This document shows, piece by piece, positions 129 to 13,199 of a stretch of 38,109 nt of DNA (position 1 is the first letter of the stretch; every line of letters starts with the position of its first letter). The position numbers were made by a program, and so were the translations under genes. The DNA is from a virus: the IMG/VR virus record IMGVR_UViG_3300032053_000211, positions 1-38,109 of that record, one strand, 5' to 3'. Below the pieces are notes generated by a model that did not search any database, was not told where the DNA came from, and saw nothing but the letters and a program-made list of their open reading frames with translations.

Positions 129-149
129 AATAACCGAGTGAGGCCGGAT

Positions 150-524
150 ATGGCAAACGGCAACGAAACCTATACGGAAGTCCTGGCCGGTATTCGTGAC
201 CGTCTTAATGGGATTGATGACCGCCTGACCTCAGTAGAGGAGCGCATCACATCGGGGGCGTCGAGTGACCGCGCCGATGCGGTTGGCAGTCGTAAGGACT
301 TTGAGGCGCTCCGCAACGTTGTGAATCACCAGCAGACGGCGGCGGCTAGTAACTACAGCAAGCAGGTCGCGGTTTGCGACGGGCGGTTCATCGGGCTGGA
401 AGACTTCAAGAAGGGCGTTATGACTATTCGGGCTGCACTCCTCTGGTCAGTGGCGACTGCGATATCCGTGGCGGGCGTGTCGGCAAGCATCGCATCGATA
501 GTGGTGAAGGTGCTAGGGGGTTAA
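150..524 (+). CDS. Coiled-coil protein with C-terminal membrane segment
   Basis: A 124-residue protein starting at ATG 150 (GAGG at 140-143 gives good spacing; the in-frame GTG at 138 is less likely). Residues about 8-60 have heptad-like spacing typical of a coiled coil (IRDRLNGIDDRL...). The last 30 residues are a hydrophobic helix (ALLWSVATAISVAG... to KVLGG). Small phage proteins with a coiled coil followed by one membrane segment include XhlA/holin-like and other membrane-anchored factors. It lies far from the lysin gene at 11895, so a holin role is only a possibility. The next gene starts 3 nt after its stop. Confidence 0.75.
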   Translation: MANGNETYTEVLAGIRDRLNGIDDRLTSVEERITSGASSDRADAVGSRKDFEALRNVVNHQQTAAASNYSKQVAVCDGRFIGLEDFKKGVMTIRAALLWSVATAISVAGVSASIASIVVKVLGG

Positions 525-1962: not shown

Positions 1963-3063
1963 ATGAAACTTTTCGCGGCGGTGTGGCATTTTAGGCCAGG
2001 AGCGCCTGGCACCTGGACTGACAAGACCGCGCTGGCGGACTCGGATATGGCCCTAACGATCCAGACGGACGACGAGCTATACTTTGGCATGGACGACTGG
2101 ACTTCGGGTATCCTGTTCTTCTTGTCCGCTTACCCATCCGCCGTTGGCTACACCATCTCGCTGTGGGATGGAGACGATTGGCGGGCCGTGCACCTAGAGG
2201 ACGTTTACCAAACGATCATGACTGGCCACACGTTCGACCGCGCCTTCACGTTCAAAACCGACGGCGCGGCCTACTGGGGGCGGTCGCCCTACGCTTGGGG
2301 GCTCGACACGCCCTCAGCGGCGAGCAACTGGCCGAAGACCGAGAATCCGCCGAACGACGTTACGACGGAGTTCTGGATTCGCGTTACCTTCTCAGCGGTA
2401 GCGGGGACGATGACACTCAAGATCGCACGCCCGCTGATGTATAACACCTACACCTCCTACAACCACGTGGCGCAGTTCCTGAGCCTGTCTTCGTTTACGG
2501 ACGTGACGGCACCGGAGGTATCCGTTGTTCGGCACGCCATCCGTGACCAGGAGGACTGGCTCGATCAGTACTGCCGTCGGACGTGGCGCTACAAGATGGT
2601 GTGGGGGGAGACGCACGACTTCAACCCCTACGGTATGCGGCTACGCATTCAGCCGCCGCAGATGGTGATGAACGTCGGGCTCTGGCAGGGGACGGCATTC
2701 GAGGCCATGCGGGAGGGGCGCGGCAAGGACTGGTTCCTAGACCCCTACTCGGGGATGTTCTACTTCATGCTCCCGTCCTTCCGACTACGCTACTACAGCT
2801 TCCTGCTGAGCCGCTACCTGCGGCAGCCACGCAGCGTGAGCATCGACTACCTCGCAGGGCAGGACTTTGAAACTAGCCCTCAGATGGCCGAGGTGCAGCA
2901 CATCATCCTTCGGCTGGTGGGGGCCGACCTCGCGCGAAACAGCGACCAGACTGGCTGGCTGTCTAGCGGGCTGAACGAGCTGAGCAAGAGCGAAAAAGTG
3001 AGAGAGTGGTACGAGGTCGCCTTGGAGCGAGCAGACCACCTGCGGTATGTAGTGATTCTGTAG
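1963..3063 (+). CDS. Head-tail connector-like protein with extra N-terminal domain
   Basis: A 366-residue protein. The N-terminal half (about 1-180) looks like a beta-sandwich rich in Trp, Thr and aromatic residues. The C-terminal half (about 185-366) resembles phage gp6/Ad1-type head-tail connector proteins: a helix around VVRHAIRDQEDWLDQYCRR, a basic/aromatic middle, then a long helical tail (MAEVQHIILRLVGADLARN, and ALERADHLRYVVIL). Such proteins form the ring between portal and tail. Typical connectors are 90-200 residues, so the N-terminal domain is extra. The assignment rests on pattern and on position upstream of the terminator and tube genes. Confidence 0.5.
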   Translation: MKLFAAVWHFRPGAPGTWTDKTALADSDMALTIQTDDELYFGMDDWTSGILFFLSAYPSAVGYTISLWDGDDWRAVHLEDVYQTIMTGHTFDRAFTFKTDGAAYWGRSPYAWGLDTPSAASNWPKTENPPNDVTTEFWIRVTFSAVAGTMTLKIARPLMYNTYTSYNHVAQFLSLSSFTDVTAPEVSVVRHAIRDQEDWLDQYCRRTWRYKMVWGETHDFNPYGMRLRIQPPQMVMNVGLWQGTAFEAMREGRGKDWFLDPYSGMFYFMLPSFRLRYYSFLLSRYLRQPRSVSIDYLAGQDFETSPQMAEVQHIILRLVGADLARNSDQTGWLSSGLNELSKSEKVREWYEVALERADHLRYVVIL

Positions 3064-5220: not shown

Positions 5221-6267
5221 ATGGCAATAATCAGAACGGAACGCGCTAGCGTCCTCTGGGCGGAGGAGTCCGCGTTTGGCTCTCTGCCTGGTAGTGGCTG
5301 GAAGCGGTTCGGTATTCATGAGGCCGTCAACGTGGCCGACCCTGAGTACGAGTGGGCTCCGTTCTTCGGTATCTTCTCGACGCGCGGACGGCAGACGATC
5401 CTGCGCGGGCGCGAATCCTTCAGGGGGACGGTGCCAGATATTCGCCTGCAGGGAAACAACACGTGGATCATGAAGATGATTCTGGGTCGTCGCTCCGGCA
5501 ACGACTACGTGGATGACTACCGGCAGGTGTCCATTCCCTTCCCCTCGTTCACTATGGCGGTTGGTCTGAAGGACTCGGACGGCAACTGGGCGCTGATCCG
5601 TGACTACCTTGGCGGGCGCGTCAATCGCGCTACGCTGTTCGCTAACGAGGGCGAAGATCTGCGTCTCAGTCTGGACGAGCTTCTGTTCAAGGACATGATC
5701 CACAACATCAGTGGCAAGGGGAAGTATAGCGCCAGCGCGACGGTGGGGAGTGATCCAGGGCCAATCTCCACAGGTCGGTTCATGTTCTCGGCGGCGGAGA
5801 TCAACATTAATGGCGTTGTCTTTGCTCACATCCGACGCTTCTCCCTGACGATAGACAACCAGCTTGAGACCAAGTACTACCTGTCCCGCGCCGACAGCGC
5901 GGACGGCTCCCAGCACCCGAAAGACCTGGTGCCAGGCAAGCAGGTCTACCGCCTGGAGACTGAGCTGGACATGGCTGACCCTGTGATCGACCGCGATATC
6001 TGGGAGTTCTTGGTCAACCAGGGTGCGAGCACGTGGCCTGGCAACACACTCGGTGCTCAGATTAGCATCTACTTCACCTCGATTAGCGAAACCGGCGGCA
6101 GCTATCGCTTCGAAATCCATTGTTCTGCCACTGGTGTGTCCGCAACCCACCCAGGTGCCGTGTTGCTTAGCGCCCCCGCGCACATACCTGCGCCTCCGAC
6201 GGGCCTGGTGCCCCAGATGGCGACGTGGGACGTGGGCGACGTGACCGTCTACGCGGAGCAGTATTAA
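5221..6267 (+). CDS. Probable major tail tube protein
   Basis: A 348-residue protein with a strong ribosome site (GGAGAGG) before ATG 5221. The N-terminus (RASVLWAEESAFGSLPGSGWKRFG) matches the opening of many tail tube proteins, which start by matching a target value to a construct. The rest is rich in beta strands, with a central region (INGVVFAHIRRFSLTIDNQLETKYYL) typical of tube folds. Many copies would stack to form the tail channel. The order terminator, tube, chaperone, tape measure supports this. It ends TAATG, coupled to the next small gene. Confidence 0.65.
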   Translation: MAIIRTERASVLWAEESAFGSLPGSGWKRFGIHEAVNVADPEYEWAPFFGIFSTRGRQTILRGRESFRGTVPDIRLQGNNTWIMKMILGRRSGNDYVDDYRQVSIPFPSFTMAVGLKDSDGNWALIRDYLGGRVNRATLFANEGEDLRLSLDELLFKDMIHNISGKGKYSASATVGSDPGPISTGRFMFSAAEININGVVFAHIRRFSLTIDNQLETKYYLSRADSADGSQHPKDLVPGKQVYRLETELDMADPVIDRDIWEFLVNQGASTWPGNTLGAQISIYFTSISETGGSYRFEIHCSATGVSATHPGAVLLSAPAHIPAPPTGLVPQMATWDVGDVTVYAEQY

Positions 6268-7315: not shown

Positions 7316-7518
7316 AGCGGGTAATCCAGGGCGGCAAGATCGGGATCACTGATGTTGTTGTTGCCCGCAAAGTGGTAGAATACGCCCTTTTGACAGCAGG
7401 CATCCCGTATCGGGATGTGAAAGTGCTGTCAGAAGAAGATGCGTGGGTATACTTTCACATTGGAAATGCATTCTCTGAGCGGCAGCAGGCCGCGCTAGAC
7501 ACGGCGAGGTCACGGTAA
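6929..7518 (+). CDS. Tail assembly chaperone, -1 frameshift (G-T-like) form
   Basis: The 127 residues up to the second Lys codon (7307-7309) are read in frame 0. After a -1 slip, base 7309 is reused and a further 69 codons are open (RVERVIQGGKIGITDVVVA..., ...LLTAGIPYRDVKVL...) to TAA at 7516-7518, giving about 196 residues. That stop overlaps the tape measure ATG (TAATG). The extension has no start of its own, yet fills the gap exactly, as in lambda G/GT. The T-like part usually binds tail tube protein. Only the sequence logic is seen; slippage rate is unknown. Confidence 0.75.
7303..7309 (+). other. -1 ribosomal frameshift slippery site (A7)
   Basis: Seven A residues followed by G, read in frame 0 as gcA AAA AAA GAG TAG. 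The run allows both tRNA-Lys to re-pair one base back. The zero-frame stop is only 4 nt downstream, which is typical of phage tail chaperone sites. Confidence 0.75.
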
Positions 7519-8624
7519 TGGCAGGAGATGGTACGGGCGGCGCGGGCGAGATCAATGTAAAGCTCGTCTTGTCCGCCGACGACTTCGCGCAGGTGCTAGG
7601 GCGGGTGGGCTTTACGCCTGACCAGGCGGCGGGCATGGTGGGAGGCGGGGGCGAAGACCGCATGCGCGGCAAGCCCGTCAACCTTGAGAAGAGTATTCGC
7701 ACGTCCCCTACGTTTATGTCCATATTCAAGCCGGTTGCCGCGCTTATGGGCGTCAACCTCGGCATCCAGGGTATCCTGAGCCAGAGCCGTGTTGCCAGCA
7801 CCTACTTGGGCGCAATGGGTAAGATGTTCGGGGCGGCGATTGACCTGTTGCTCATTCCGTTCATCCCTATTTTCAACCTCTTGATGGTCGGCATGGGTAT
7901 GCTGGTCAAGTGGCTGATTACGTCCGGCATCCTTGACAGGATTAGTGAGGGCGTTCTCAAGTTCATGGAGTTTGTCAAGAACGACATCTGGCCTCCGCTG
8001 CAGGAGCTGGTGGAGGGGATTAAGGAAATGAATCCTTTGAAGGTCGCGGGCGCGATATGGGACTTGGGCACCACTACGATTAAGGCATGGATGCAGAGCC
8101 TTATCAAAGACCCACTGGAGACTATCGCTGGTACCCTTGCGACGATGCTCATCCTGCAGAAGCTCACAGGCATCTTTGGCGGGGGGGGAGGCCCAGCAGT
8201 GGGCGGCGTTGCGGGAGCTACGATGCGCACCTCTAGTGCCATGAGCAAGATTCCGATACTAGGGACGCTCGCCGCCATTAGCGGCGCAGTTGGCTTCGAG
8301 ACTGAGAAGAGGTTCGGCTGGATGGACAAGGCCGGAGACCTTACCGAGTTCGGCGGGAACCAGTTCGGAAACGCGATGGAGCGTTGGCGGGGCGGCGGTC
8401 AGGAGCGTCCTCAAGGGGGGATGTCTATTACCTCCGCGACGGCGGCACCAGTCGGCCCGATGCCCCCTGAGTACTACAAGCAAAACCCGAACGCTTCCTA
8501 CGGCGGTTCACCAATAACCATGAACGTCACGATCAACGAGGCCAAAGACCCGATGGAGGTCAAGGCTGCGATGGAGGCTTATCGCAATACGCTGCTGGCA
8601 CAATCGGGGCGGGAGGGAAAGTAG
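7518..8624 (+). CDS. Tape measure protein (short)
   Basis: A 368-residue protein starting at ATG 7518, preceded by GAGGT (7506-7510). It follows the frameshifted chaperone, the defining position of the tape measure. Two hydrophobic stretches (about 70-92 and 100-135, GAAIDLLLIPFIPIFNLLMVGMGMLVKWL) fit the membrane-inserting part. Gly-rich linkers and a C-terminal region with ITMNVTINEAKDPMEVKAAM are typical ends of such proteins. Tape measures often exceed 700 residues, so this one is short and predicts a short tail. Confidence 0.75.
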   Translation: MAGDGTGGAGEINVKLVLSADDFAQVLGRVGFTPDQAAGMVGGGGEDRMRGKPVNLEKSIRTSPTFMSIFKPVAALMGVNLGIQGILSQSRVASTYLGAMGKMFGAAIDLLLIPFIPIFNLLMVGMGMLVKWLITSGILDRISEGVLKFMEFVKNDIWPPLQELVEGIKEMNPLKVAGAIWDLGTTTIKAWMQSLIKDPLETIAGTLATMLILQKLTGIFGGGGGPAVGGVAGATMRTSSAMSKIPILGTLAAISGAVGFETEKRFGWMDKAGDLTEFGGNQFGNAMERWRGGGQERPQGGMSITSATAAPVGPMPPEYYKQNPNASYGGSPITMNVTINEAKDPMEVKAAMEAYRNTLLAQSGREGK

Positions 8625-9592: not shown

Positions 9593-11329
9593 ATGGCGCG
9601 AATGCCCGCAGTTCAATACGGGGAGGGGGGTGCCGCCCCGTCAGGTTGGACTGATCTGCAACACGTTTACCGTACGCGCCTGGAGTACACGACCAATCAT
9701 CCTGGCCAGCTCGAAGTCGAGTGTGGGGCGACGGGCGGCGCTCCGCCTGCGCTGCTTTCGTGTATCCGCCTGCTCTCCTACGACGTGCCTGGCGCGGGCG
9801 GCAGGGCCTCTATCTTCACTGGCCGAATCGACGAAGTGCGACCGATCCATACTACTAACGTGGGTCATATCTGGCAGATTCGAGCACGAGATTACCTCGC
9901 CGCGTTAGCTGATAACACAGTAGGGCATCCCATGGAGTCAAGTTCCGCTGCCCCGATGCCCCAGGATACATGGGGCCGTCGCGTGCCCAACTGGAGACTC
10001 GGCTGCCTGGACGGGCAAGACCCTGGTGGGAACTGTGGGCGTCCGCGCTATGCGATCGTCGTAGCCTTGGCGCGAAGCCCGCGCCACGCCTTTACGGGTC
10101 ATAACTCCATTGGTATCGATACGGGGTCTGATTACATTACGCCGGACTACCTGCACACGCCGACGAAGAGCATCCTGCAGGTTATACAGGAGCTATGCGA
10201 TGCCGGAACTTGGACAGAACCGATATGGCCTGGCCGCCTTCGTCATGGATGGGACTTTGGGGCAGGGCCAGTTAGCCCTTCCTACTTCCATGTGTTCGCT
10301 CGCGGGCGAGACTGGTGGGATCAGAGTATTGATTGGACATGGCAAGAGCACGGCGCGAACCGTGTGACAATCACAGATTACAAGGTCTTCGATCACGGCT
10401 ATGACGTCTACACCAGGGCCTACTCGATGGGGACGGGAGACGTGTCTGGCTTGGAGGGCAACCCCACTATCGCTTCCGAGTCTTACGGCATGATCACACC
10501 TGGCGTCAATGATCCTTACAGCTTGAGCTACGACAAGGAGAATAAGTGGAATCCCGCTGTCGGTCAGTTTCGCATCCAGCGGGACACGAGCGAGGTGCGG
10601 ATCGGCGAGACGGACAGGGACGCGCTGACGCAGGGGGCACAAGCGAAGCTTGAGGCGGACGGTGATGACCTGTACTATAAGGGTCGTAAGATGCAGATAA
10701 CTACGATCGGCATCCCTCTTAGTACGTACGGGGAACCCCCGTTCCCAGGCAAGAAAATCTGGGTGCGGGGCATTCCTGGTATCGCGGCACAGGCCTTCGT
10801 GATTAGCAGATGGACGTACAACGCGCCAGACGGCCATTCTGTACTAGACCTCGGCCTGCCCGTTTACGAGGCTGGCCTTAAGATGGCTGAAGTGCAGAAG
10901 CTTGCGCACCAGGGCATCTCCGGTCAGCACTGGGTAGGGCCGTGGTGGAGTACCGTCGGCCCAGAGATTGCAGGCGGCTCTGATTACGGGTTTTATCACA
11001 ACCTTGGGGTCATGCCGCGAAACGTTTACGTCCAGATCGCCAAGATCGTAACGCATCGGTCTTACTATAACTGCGACCAAAAAGGCAAGGAGATCAGTGC
11101 GAAGTGCTTGTACGAACCCAGCATTAGCAGGGGAGAGATGATGCACCGCGAGGAGGACGGACGCTGGGTAGGCTACTCGATTATGGACGCGCACAAGGAC
11201 TATGTTAAGATTCGGTGGGCACACTTTATGGGCTACTCGGCGGGCGAGGCAGCGGGCGCGGGCGATCCCGCGCGCGGCTGGTTGGAGATGGGCTGGGACA
11301 CAGCGTTCAGGATCGTAGTGGAGGCGTGA
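9593..11329 (+). CDS. Baseplate hub / tail-tip protein
   Basis: A 578-residue protein. Residues about 25-110 have the hub signature: RLEYTTNHPGQLEVECG, IFTGRIDEVRPI, and IWQIRARDYLAALADN, as in gp27/Tal-type hub proteins that open the tail and contact the cell surface. Later, IWVRGIPGIAAQAFVISRWTYNAPDGHSVLDLGLP (two segments) closes the hub domain. The C-terminal 150 residues are different, with Trp, Tyr and Cys (YYNCDQKGKEISAKCLYEP), and could be an added receptor or structural domain. Follows the Dit-like genes, as expected. Confidence 0.65.
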   Translation: MARMPAVQYGEGGAAPSGWTDLQHVYRTRLEYTTNHPGQLEVECGATGGAPPALLSCIRLLSYDVPGAGGRASIFTGRIDEVRPIHTTNVGHIWQIRARDYLAALADNTVGHPMESSSAAPMPQDTWGRRVPNWRLGCLDGQDPGGNCGRPRYAIVVALARSPRHAFTGHNSIGIDTGSDYITPDYLHTPTKSILQVIQELCDAGTWTEPIWPGRLRHGWDFGAGPVSPSYFHVFARGRDWWDQSIDWTWQEHGANRVTITDYKVFDHGYDVYTRAYSMGTGDVSGLEGNPTIASESYGMITPGVNDPYSLSYDKENKWNPAVGQFRIQRDTSEVRIGETDRDALTQGAQAKLEADGDDLYYKGRKMQITTIGIPLSTYGEPPFPGKKIWVRGIPGIAAQAFVISRWTYNAPDGHSVLDLGLPVYEAGLKMAEVQKLAHQGISGQHWVGPWWSTVGPEIAGGSDYGFYHNLGVMPRNVYVQIAKIVTHRSYYNCDQKGKEISAKCLYEPSISRGEMMHREEDGRWVGYSIMDAHKDYVKIRWAHFMGYSAGEAAGAGDPARGWLEMGWDTAFRIVVEA

Positions 11330-11333
11330 TCGC

Positions 11334-11891
11334 ATGGCGGGACTGAGTACCATCAAGTTCGTTGTCACGGGGGTCGCAAAGGGCACCTGTCCGTGTTGCA
11401 TCGGTGGCGAGGTGGCACACGTGCTAGGCTGCACCAAGGACTGCCTCTGCGGGCAGTTCCTGAAGCAGCTAGAGAAGCATCAAAAGGGCCTGCCACGCTA
11501 CCACACCTGCCTGCGGGATTTGCCTGGTCGCGGGCGCTTGCATGTCTATATGCTACAGCCGGATGTCCTGCACGTCGAGCTAGCGACGTTCGGGTTTCTA
11601 TCCTATGTGGAAGCGACCGCTATCGGGGAACTTCTACGGGCGACGGGGGAGCACCTTACCGCCTCTTCAAGTGAGTATGGCTATACGGCGGAGGAACTAG
11701 GGCACCCGCCCGAAGACCCCTCCGATCCTTACAACAGTCTCCCGCCATATCAGCATGGGCTAGTTACTCCTGAACAGGATGAGCGGCTGGCGCGTGCGCT
11801 CGCAGAAGGCCCTCCGTGGGAGCGCGCGGAGGAACTGCGACCGGAGCGATCACCGCGACCCATCCCGCCACCCTTGCCAGGGCATCGGTAG
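11334..11891 (+). CDS. Cys-rich hypothetical protein before the lysin
   Basis: A 185-residue protein starting at ATG 11334. The N-terminal 55 residues hold eight Cys (GTCPCCIGGEVAHVLGC, CTKDCLCGQF, HTCLRD), which could bind metal or form disulfides. A middle helical domain follows, and the last 60 residues are Pro, Glu and Arg rich and likely disordered. It sits 3 nt before the Cys-rich lysin gene, so the two may work together at the tail tip. No family is recognised. Confidence 0.6.
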   Translation: MAGLSTIKFVVTGVAKGTCPCCIGGEVAHVLGCTKDCLCGQFLKQLEKHQKGLPRYHTCLRDLPGRGRLHVYMLQPDVLHVELATFGFLSYVEATAIGELLRATGEHLTASSSEYGYTAEELGHPPEDPSDPYNSLPPYQHGLVTPEQDERLARALAEGPPWERAEELRPERSPRPIPPPLPGHR

Positions 11892-11894
11892 GCT

Positions 11895-13199
11895 ATGGCT
11901 ACGGTTCCCGTGGTTTTCGGCTCCTACTCTGTACCTTGGGATTGGTGGATAACACTATACGACTTTGTACGGACGGCGGGCCACGTGACCGATCCGTTCG
12001 ATGGCAACTGCGACCGGATAACCGCCTACCTCGCCATTGGCGCGGCGGAGAGTGGGTGGCGCGTTGACGCTGATGGGGCCTACATCTGCGACTGTTGTGC
12101 GTGCGGAGAGTGCAGCTACTGCGATATGTGCTCACTGCTTTGCGATGATAATACCAAGTCGCCGTATCAGAAGGCGCAGGAGCACTACGGCGGGAACGCA
12201 TATACCTCGCACGGCCCCTATCAGGTAAGCGTCTGCGGAGGCCAGGCTAGCGCCTGGAAGTGTGCACCCGCCGAGCTGCATGACCCTGCCACCCACCTCT
12301 TGATCGCGTTGCCGCCGATCAGAGATGCGATCAATAACTACTGGGATGACAGCGCGCCAATAGAGACGAACGTCTGTAACGCGGCGCTGGGAAGCGGCCA
12401 TCCCTGCTACTTCTGTCTGGACTGCAGCGAGTACCGGATACAGAACATTATCGGGTGCTTCAATAACATGAGGCAGTCCGTTTGTGCTTGGCTAGCAGGA
12501 AACGCGCCGCCTCCGCCCGTTGATCCTAACTGCGAGCCTAGCCCGATGCCTGACCTTCCTTTCGGCACGGCGTCGGCACGTCCTATGCCCCCCCTGCCAC
12601 CAGACGTCGCCTCGCCCTGGCCAATGCCACCCTTGCCCAATCAAGGGAGCCCGTGTGCAAGCGGCGGAGGGGGAGACCCTGCGGGGTTACAGTGGCAATG
12701 CCCACTGACGGGAAGTTTCGCGGTATCCCAGCCCTACGGGGGCAGTTGCGCGGCGGGAACCTACTGGTGCGACGATGAGCTGCCCGATGCTCCTGGTAAT
12801 CAGTGCGGCCATTCGGGAGTTGACCTGGACACGTTCGGCGTAAACATCGACGTGCGTCCGGCGGCGGGATGGGGGGACGGCACCACGAAGGTCTGGGTCG
12901 CGATGGTCGGGTATGACGCCCAGGCCGGTAACTACGTGGTGCTGCGCCACGCGGATAACTACTACAATCAGATGATCGAGACCGCGTACTTCCACCTGGA
13001 CTCGGTCGCCGTGCAGCAGAATACCTGGATTGACTGGACGACCATCATCGGGCAGACGGGCACGACGGGATGGTCAAGCGGCATCCACTTGCACTTTGAG
13101 GTGCGCGTCGCAACCCTGCCGGACATGACGTGTGGCTGTGCCTACCCTGCTTGCGCGCAACGCATGAATCCGGCGAGATTCGTTCCATGTGTGGCATAG
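11895..13199 (+). CDS. Two-domain peptidoglycan hydrolase (lysozyme-like + M23 peptidase)
   Basis: A 434-residue protein. N-terminal domain: AAESGW with likely catalytic Glu52, then SHGPYQVS (about 106-113), as in lysozyme-like transglycosylases cutting glycan strands. A Pro-rich linker spans about 204-255. C-terminal domain: zinc peptidase M23 with HSGVD (His306, Asp310), YFHLD (His368) and HLHFEV (His398, His400), cutting peptide cross-bridges. It has 27 Cys, eight of them between residues 65 and 83, suggesting disulfides or metal binding in a protein acting outside the cell. No signal peptide is seen. Position at the end of the tail genes fits a virion-bound lysin or an endolysin. Confidence 0.85.
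   Translation: MATVPVVFGSYSVPWDWWITLYDFVRTAGHVTDPFDGNCDRITAYLAIGAAESGWRVDADGAYICDCCACGECSYCDMCSLLCDDNTKSPYQKAQEHYGGNAYTSHGPYQVSVCGGQASAWKCAPAELHDPATHLLIALPPIRDAINNYWDDSAPIETNVCNAALGSGHPCYFCLDCSEYRIQNIIGCFNNMRQSVCAWLAGNAPPPPVDPNCEPSPMPDLPFGTASARPMPPLPPDVASPWPMPPLPNQGSPCASGGGGDPAGLQWQCPLTGSFAVSQPYGGSCAAGTYWCDDELPDAPGNQCGHSGVDLDTFGVNIDVRPAAGWGDGTTKVWVAMVGYDAQAGNYVVLRHADNYYNQMIETAYFHLDSVAVQQNTWIDWTTIIGQTGTTGWSSGIHLHFEVRVATLPDMTCGCAYPACAQRMNPARFVPCVA

Follow-up and report, generated by a model that had tools for sequence, protein, structure and literature searches.

The lysin locus

The window, which is the whole stretch of 38,109 nucleotides of viral DNA that was analysed, carries a gene for a Cys-rich lysin that closes the tail operon, its start lying 3 bases past the end (11891) of the preceding tail-region ORF on the same strand. 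The following features are relevant here.

7518-8624, + strand: putative short tape-measure protein, with syntenic homologues in the relatives L003, L126, L144 and L145; role from position
9593-11329, + strand: putative tail-tip protein of 578 amino acids, syntenic in L003, L126 and L144; role from position
11334-11891, + strand: 185-amino-acid neighbour with a T-C-P-C-C motif (the CPCC protein), co-conserved just upstream of the lysin
11895-13199, + strand: Cys-rich two-domain lysin gene, with an ATG start, 434 amino acids and 27 Cys
11895-12509, + strand: N-terminal lysozyme-like domain, residues 1-205, with the presumed catalytic Glu52 (AAESGW) and the motif G107-P-Y-Q110
12087-12143, + strand: 8-Cys cluster, residues 65-83, C-x-C-C-x-C-x2-C-x2-C-x2-C-x3-C
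12507-12689, + strand: Pro-rich linker, residues about 205-265, carrying Cys213 and Cys254
12690-13196, + strand: M23 endopeptidase domain, residues 266-434, with His306, Asp310, His398 and His400

The C-terminal half of the lysin is firmly supported by its sequence as an intact M23 endopeptidase. The Peptidase_M23 profile (PF01551) matches residues 334-406 with an E value of 2.8e-13 and 50.3 bits, against a curated cut-off of 28.7, and the HxxxD (His306-x3-Asp310) and HxH (His398-x-His400) motifs are invariant in all four aligned lineages. No hydrophobic anchor is present, in that no 19-residue segment reaches a mean hydropathy of 1.7, and the N-terminal hydrophobic signal-anchor that defines SAR endolysins is likewise absent.

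Lysin orthologues share 99% (L002), 71% (L003), 73% (L126) and 40% (L144) identity with the window protein in a MAFFT alignment, the last being a full-length, syntenic orthologue with 34% identity by tblastn. L126 was reached by a scan with the tail-tip protein, and L144 and L145 by a scan with the tape-measure protein. The lysin-bearing comparison comprises only four independent lineages. No further lysin-bearing lineage emerged when viral contigs were scanned with the lysin, with alignments of it, with the N-terminal domain or with the tail-tube alignment. A scan of genome contigs gave one match that was M23-only, and the phage collection gave two M23-only matches to the full-length lysin, together with a chance match (E 3) to the N-terminal domain.

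Host and genomic setting

The window is a fragment of a larger genome, since the contig of a near relative measures 109,910 bp. Divergence from this relative is mosaic, with 97% identity over one gene (window positions 1963-3063) and 74% in the tail tube 2 kb away (5221-6267). The portal protein of the relative (L132:9492-11282, - strand) has its nearest counterparts in the haloarchaeal tailed viruses HCTV-5 and HVTV-1 (26% identity, E 1e-37), and matches to the window terminase are scattered. Despite the haloarchaeal-like portal, the relative carries peptidoglycan enzymes, and the presence of lysins implies a peptidoglycan-bearing host. The same relative encodes a 1,654-amino-acid protein with a DRAT-like ADP-ribosyltransferase match (L131:4320-9284, - strand; PF07357, E 3.1e-6) and a CAP-domain protein with 12 Cys that is putatively secreted (L133:7312-8412, - strand; PF00188, E 2.2e-9).

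The N-terminal domain

Residues 1-205 of the lysin have no sequence match in Pfam, NCBIfam, PHROGs or the PDB. The SLT/GH23 (PF01464) and SLT_3 (PF18896) families did not match the domain in the window, L003, L126 or L144, and Phage_lysozyme2 (PF18013) matched none of six records. An hhalign comparison with 16 cellular SLT domains, being those caught by a motif pattern among the 32 loci listed, was also negative (E 0.25-0.37). A short, weak hhalign match around Glu52 was obtained with P0002, at E 0.0061 for the whole domain and 0.0014 when the loop columns were removed. Glu52, Gly107 and Gln110 are invariant in all four aligned lineages.

A full-length AlphaFold model was discarded (pLDDT 33.9). 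In the case of the N-terminal domain, modelled from four sequences, the mean pLDDT is 61.6 and the pTM 0.65, with a fairly confident helix at residues 39-52 that ends at Glu52 and fairly confident later helices. Structure prediction of the cluster region, as proposed in the initial annotation, leaves residues 54-84 at a pLDDT below 50 within a surrounding fold that is modelled moderately. Foldseek found no match to the domain model at E <= 0.001 in the PDB or BFVD. With VIA-align 2, 14 of the best 15 rows (Z 7.2-4.3) are named endolysins, chitinases or lytic transglycosylases, the top rows including two endolysins, phage protein 7r6s, a Ralstonia chitinase, GH19-type chitinases, MltE and MltD. 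The score then drops from 4.3 for the last related row to 3.0 for the first unrelated one; Z scores under 8 are weak alone, though the rows for this domain agree.

The fold comparisons and the motif A-A-E52-S-G-W ... S-H-G-P-Y-Q suggest, with moderate confidence, that the N-terminal domain is a lysozyme-like glycosidase. A comparable pairing is found in a more distant relative, G004, where an open frame of 1,941 residues ends in an SLT_3 (E 4.5e-10) and an M23 (E 1.6e-16) domain. The M23 domain of G004 also contains Cys. Of the double action ascribed to the lysin from its sequence, the M23 half is upheld by PF01551, and the lysozyme-like half draws on model fold, motif and the SLT_3 and M23 relative, but finds no sequence family to which it can be assigned.

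The cysteine cluster

Translation of the ORF bears out the counts given in the initial annotation, with eight Cys in residues 65-83 (positions 65, 67, 68, 70, 73, 76, 79 and 83) and 27 in the whole protein. The cluster lies 13-31 residues past Glu52 and ahead of G107-P-Y-Q110. In the SLT_3 domain of G004, only about 20 residues, none of them Cys, separate Glu-Ser-Gly from G-I-L-Q, from which it follows that the loop bearing the Cys cluster is an insertion next to the presumed active site. Relative to P0002, the lysin has roughly 35 extra residues, including the cluster, between its Glu and G-x-x-Q motifs.

Phage lysins are usually Cys-poor. The density of Cys in the cluster is as unusual as first claimed: only 15 of 20,000 shuffles of the lysin's own residues gave eight Cys per 19-residue window, and not one of 562 mechanical ORFs of at least 200 amino acids, from 120 unrelated viral contigs, had even six. 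A motif search of those 120 contigs gave two M23-like ORFs, which fit the usual Cys-poverty of lysins in having at most two Cys per 19 residues. Within the available pieces of the phage clade, seven or eight Cys per 19 residues occur in four of 197 ORFs of at least 150 amino acids, three of which are the lysin gene and its orthologues. An assembly artefact can be dismissed, because the cluster recurs in contigs of other metagenome records. Cys enrichment extends beyond the loop to both lysin domains and the linker. The other ORFs of the tail operon are poor in Cys, with none in those starting at 7518, 8628 and 9130, seven in the 578 residues of ORF 9593, and seven in the 185 residues of ORF 11334.

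A 29-amino-acid cluster peptide gave no Pfam or PDB match up to E 10, a query so short having little power. The Cys spacing alone, used as a query on viral contigs (at least 120 stretches), was set aside as a means of finding relatives; among the stretches listed, the 44 open frames of at least 60 amino acids with the spacing in their protein were mostly low-complexity Cys runs, none being flagged with the M23 H-x-H motif or matching the lysin by phmmer.

All eight cluster Cys are invariant in the window, L002, L003 and L126. Between the window and L003, five of the eight Cys codons differ synonymously, whereas eight of the 24 codons for residues 63-86 differ by amino acid, none of them at a Cys. 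This synonymous turnover of Cys codons amid changing loop residues indicates purifying selection on the cysteines. In L144, with 17 Cys in the whole protein, the equivalent loop is retained with four of the eight Cys, a count that rests on a gapped alignment, with the identity of the matching four dependent on that alignment. L144 nevertheless retains Glu52 and all M23 ligands. Thus, to judge from full conservation in orthologues at 71-73% identity and a halved complement in L144, selection acts on the cluster within its clade, yet the family as a whole has not fixed it. Active homologues without the cluster had been named as the observation that would make it incidental; L144, apparently intact in its catalytic residues with half of the Cys, goes part of the way towards such a homologue.

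Tail lysin or endolysin

The gene order of tape-measure protein, two small tail genes, tip protein, CPCC protein and lysin is repeated in L003, L126 and L144, with the exception that in L003 two additional genes (L003:5737-6904) separate the lysin from the CPCC protein. The first encodes an Amidase_2-like protein of 144 amino acids without Cys (PF01510, E 0.0026, below cut-off), and the second a further M23 protein of 243 amino acids (E 2.6e-6, just below cut-off), which gives L003 three consecutive wall-cutting genes with the lysin last. In the case of G004, the 1,941-residue frame (in part L152:22-4023) lies in the tail region, downstream of a tail-tip homologue.

The interpretation favoured here, with a probability of roughly 0.55, is that the protein is a tail lysin carried in the virion, comparable in kind to gp13 of phi29, with a lysozyme lid braced by disulfides. 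The N-terminal glycosidase would cut glycan strands through Glu52 and the C-terminal M23 zinc endopeptidase would cut peptide stems, with both cuts allowing the tail to cross peptidoglycan at entry.

A different role, fairly unlikely but the foremost of the alternatives, is that of an endolysin with no part in the virion, released at the end of infection in a holin-dependent manner and stabilised by its Cys after release. Apart from the lysin, no M23 gene turned up in the 109,910-bp relative, where Amidase_2, SLT, SLT_3 and Phage_lysozyme2 gave no match, and the three adjacent lytic genes of L003 could equally be a lysis cassette. Because no other lytic match was found in the relative, an endolysin role, alone or in addition, is possible. 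Against it are the closing position of the gene in the tail operon, shared by four lineages, and the G004 arrangement, in which the lysozyme-like and M23 pair is fused to a long frame of the tail region; moreover, a separate endolysin may exist in a family other than the five searched (those four and M23). The report that no holin gene is adjacent agrees with an upstream neighbour devoid of a hydrophobic segment, but can speak only for a fragment of the genome. At window positions 138-524 there is a small protein with a coiled coil and one transmembrane segment, in a layout resembling that of L154:11116-11415; its sequence makes it a possible lysis-related or tail-chaperone protein.

The state of the cysteines

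Phage lysins are usually made in a reducing cytoplasm. In the favoured tail-lysin interpretation, the Cys of the loop that follows the catalytic-Glu helix and precedes the G-x-Y-Q motif would most likely form intramolecular disulfides, as would most other Cys of the protein, and these bonds would brace an otherwise floppy loop once the virion has left that compartment. The sequence, its conservation, the synteny, the M23 motifs and the joint loss of Cys pairs are observed, and lysozyme activity, a virion location, a disulfide state and a bracing role for the loop are predicted.

The pattern of Cys loss bears on this point. L003 lacks both Cys39 and Cys197, which the window, L126 and L144 all have, and L144 lacks both Cys213 and Cys254, and likewise both Cys269 and Cys292. 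Where the window has Cys285, L003 and L126 have Cys299 in its stead. Since Cys outside the loop vanish in pairs, as disulfide partners would, disulfides are favoured over one metal cluster. Two changes are single: Cys188 is absent in L126, and Cys313 is found only in L003. The totals over the four lineages (27, 26, 26 and 17, with 17, 15, 16 and 11 in the N-terminal domain) are not all even, and some Cys must therefore be free or change partners. The disulfide locking first suggested is favoured by the paired losses, with the single changes and uneven totals speaking against it; on balance disulfides are the likelier state, though not exclusively. No thioredoxin-family gene was found in the six phage records, and with it no phage-coded helper of the Trx type.

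Metal binding by the loop ranks next among the alternatives and is unlikely. Here, the eight Cys would take up zinc in the cytoplasm, or else copper or an Fe-S centre, and the loop would thereby fold in a metallothionein-like or zinc-knuckle-like manner before the lysin joins the tail. The C-x-C, C-C and C-x2-C spacings, with eight Cys in 19 residues, are suggestive of such a site, as is the manufacture of a protein without a hydrophobic secretion signal or anchor in a normally reducing compartment. The CPCC protein, which has no family match (the putative tip protein has no convincing one), adds an invariant set of four Cys and a His (Cys21, Cys37, Cys39, Cys59 and His57) in all four lineages, and its sequence makes it a possible metal-binding assembly partner of the lysin. 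The halving of the cluster in L144 fits the loss of two bonds, and also that of one four-Cys metal site, although retention of only four Cys counts against the metal reading. The lack of Pfam or PDB matches to the cluster peptide, and the spread of Cys over both domains and the linker, also speak against a metal site.

In the boldest reading, which appears improbable, the cysteines act as a redox switch. Inside the producing cell the lid would be in a reduced state, either open or misfolded, keeping the lysin harmless during assembly; on departure of the virion it would be oxidised to an active, locked form, or the other way round, which would make the protein a thiol-gated tail lysin. That the loop is simply drifting and happens to be Cys-rich in one clade is very improbable; the half-complement of L144 and the Cys-free SLT_3 spacing of G004 would fit, but the retention of all eight Cys through synonymous turnover in a changing loop, and the rarity of such clusters in shuffled sequences, would not.

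Comparison with known systems

The phi29 gp13 tail-tip lysin bears an M23 domain (PDB 3CSQ, as listed in PMC9662197) and a lysozyme half, which is indicated in PMC10194240, where Phage_lysozyme2 (PF18013) is named as structurally homologous to the tail enzyme of phi29. Like gp13, the lysin has a putative glycosidase-like domain followed by M23, in the same order, and would serve peptidoglycan entry from a tail location that is inferred in the present case. Unlike gp13, it has an N-terminal domain without detectable sequence kinship to PF18013, a Pro-rich linker and, among its 27 Cys, an 8-Cys lid loop; the likeness between the two is one of layout. Lytic transglycosylase domains of the GH23/SLT type also occur in phage tail proteins, according to a survey (PMC10194240). 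The lysin shares with them a Glu followed by a G-x-x-Q motif, and its model has MltE, MltD and the Ralstonia chitinase as neighbours, but it differs in lacking an SLT family match and in the extra Cys-cluster loop between the motifs.

A Cys cluster in a tail lysin was not described in the literature searched, a set largely without subscription papers that includes the accessible parts of PMC9662197, PMC10194240, PMC7650644 and PMC3556154. The two-domain layout of a tail lysin is already known; what is new here is that one clade has an 8-Cys lid under selection, of which a distant orthologue keeps half. Plain disulfide bracing of the lid would extend the known kind of tail lysin only modestly. 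Such a conserved, Cys-dense lid would nonetheless offer a natural test of how a virion enzyme is kept stable, or silent until release, and could supply a thiol-controlled lysin domain. A precedent for control through Cys is P1 Lyz, a disulfide-regulated phage lysozyme mentioned in PMC3556154. P1 Lyz belongs to the membrane-held SAR endolysins, whereas the lysin has no hydrophobic anchor and many more Cys; both have Cys near the catalytic site, a presumed one in the lysin, and the bonding state that matters in P1 Lyz could matter in the lysin as well.
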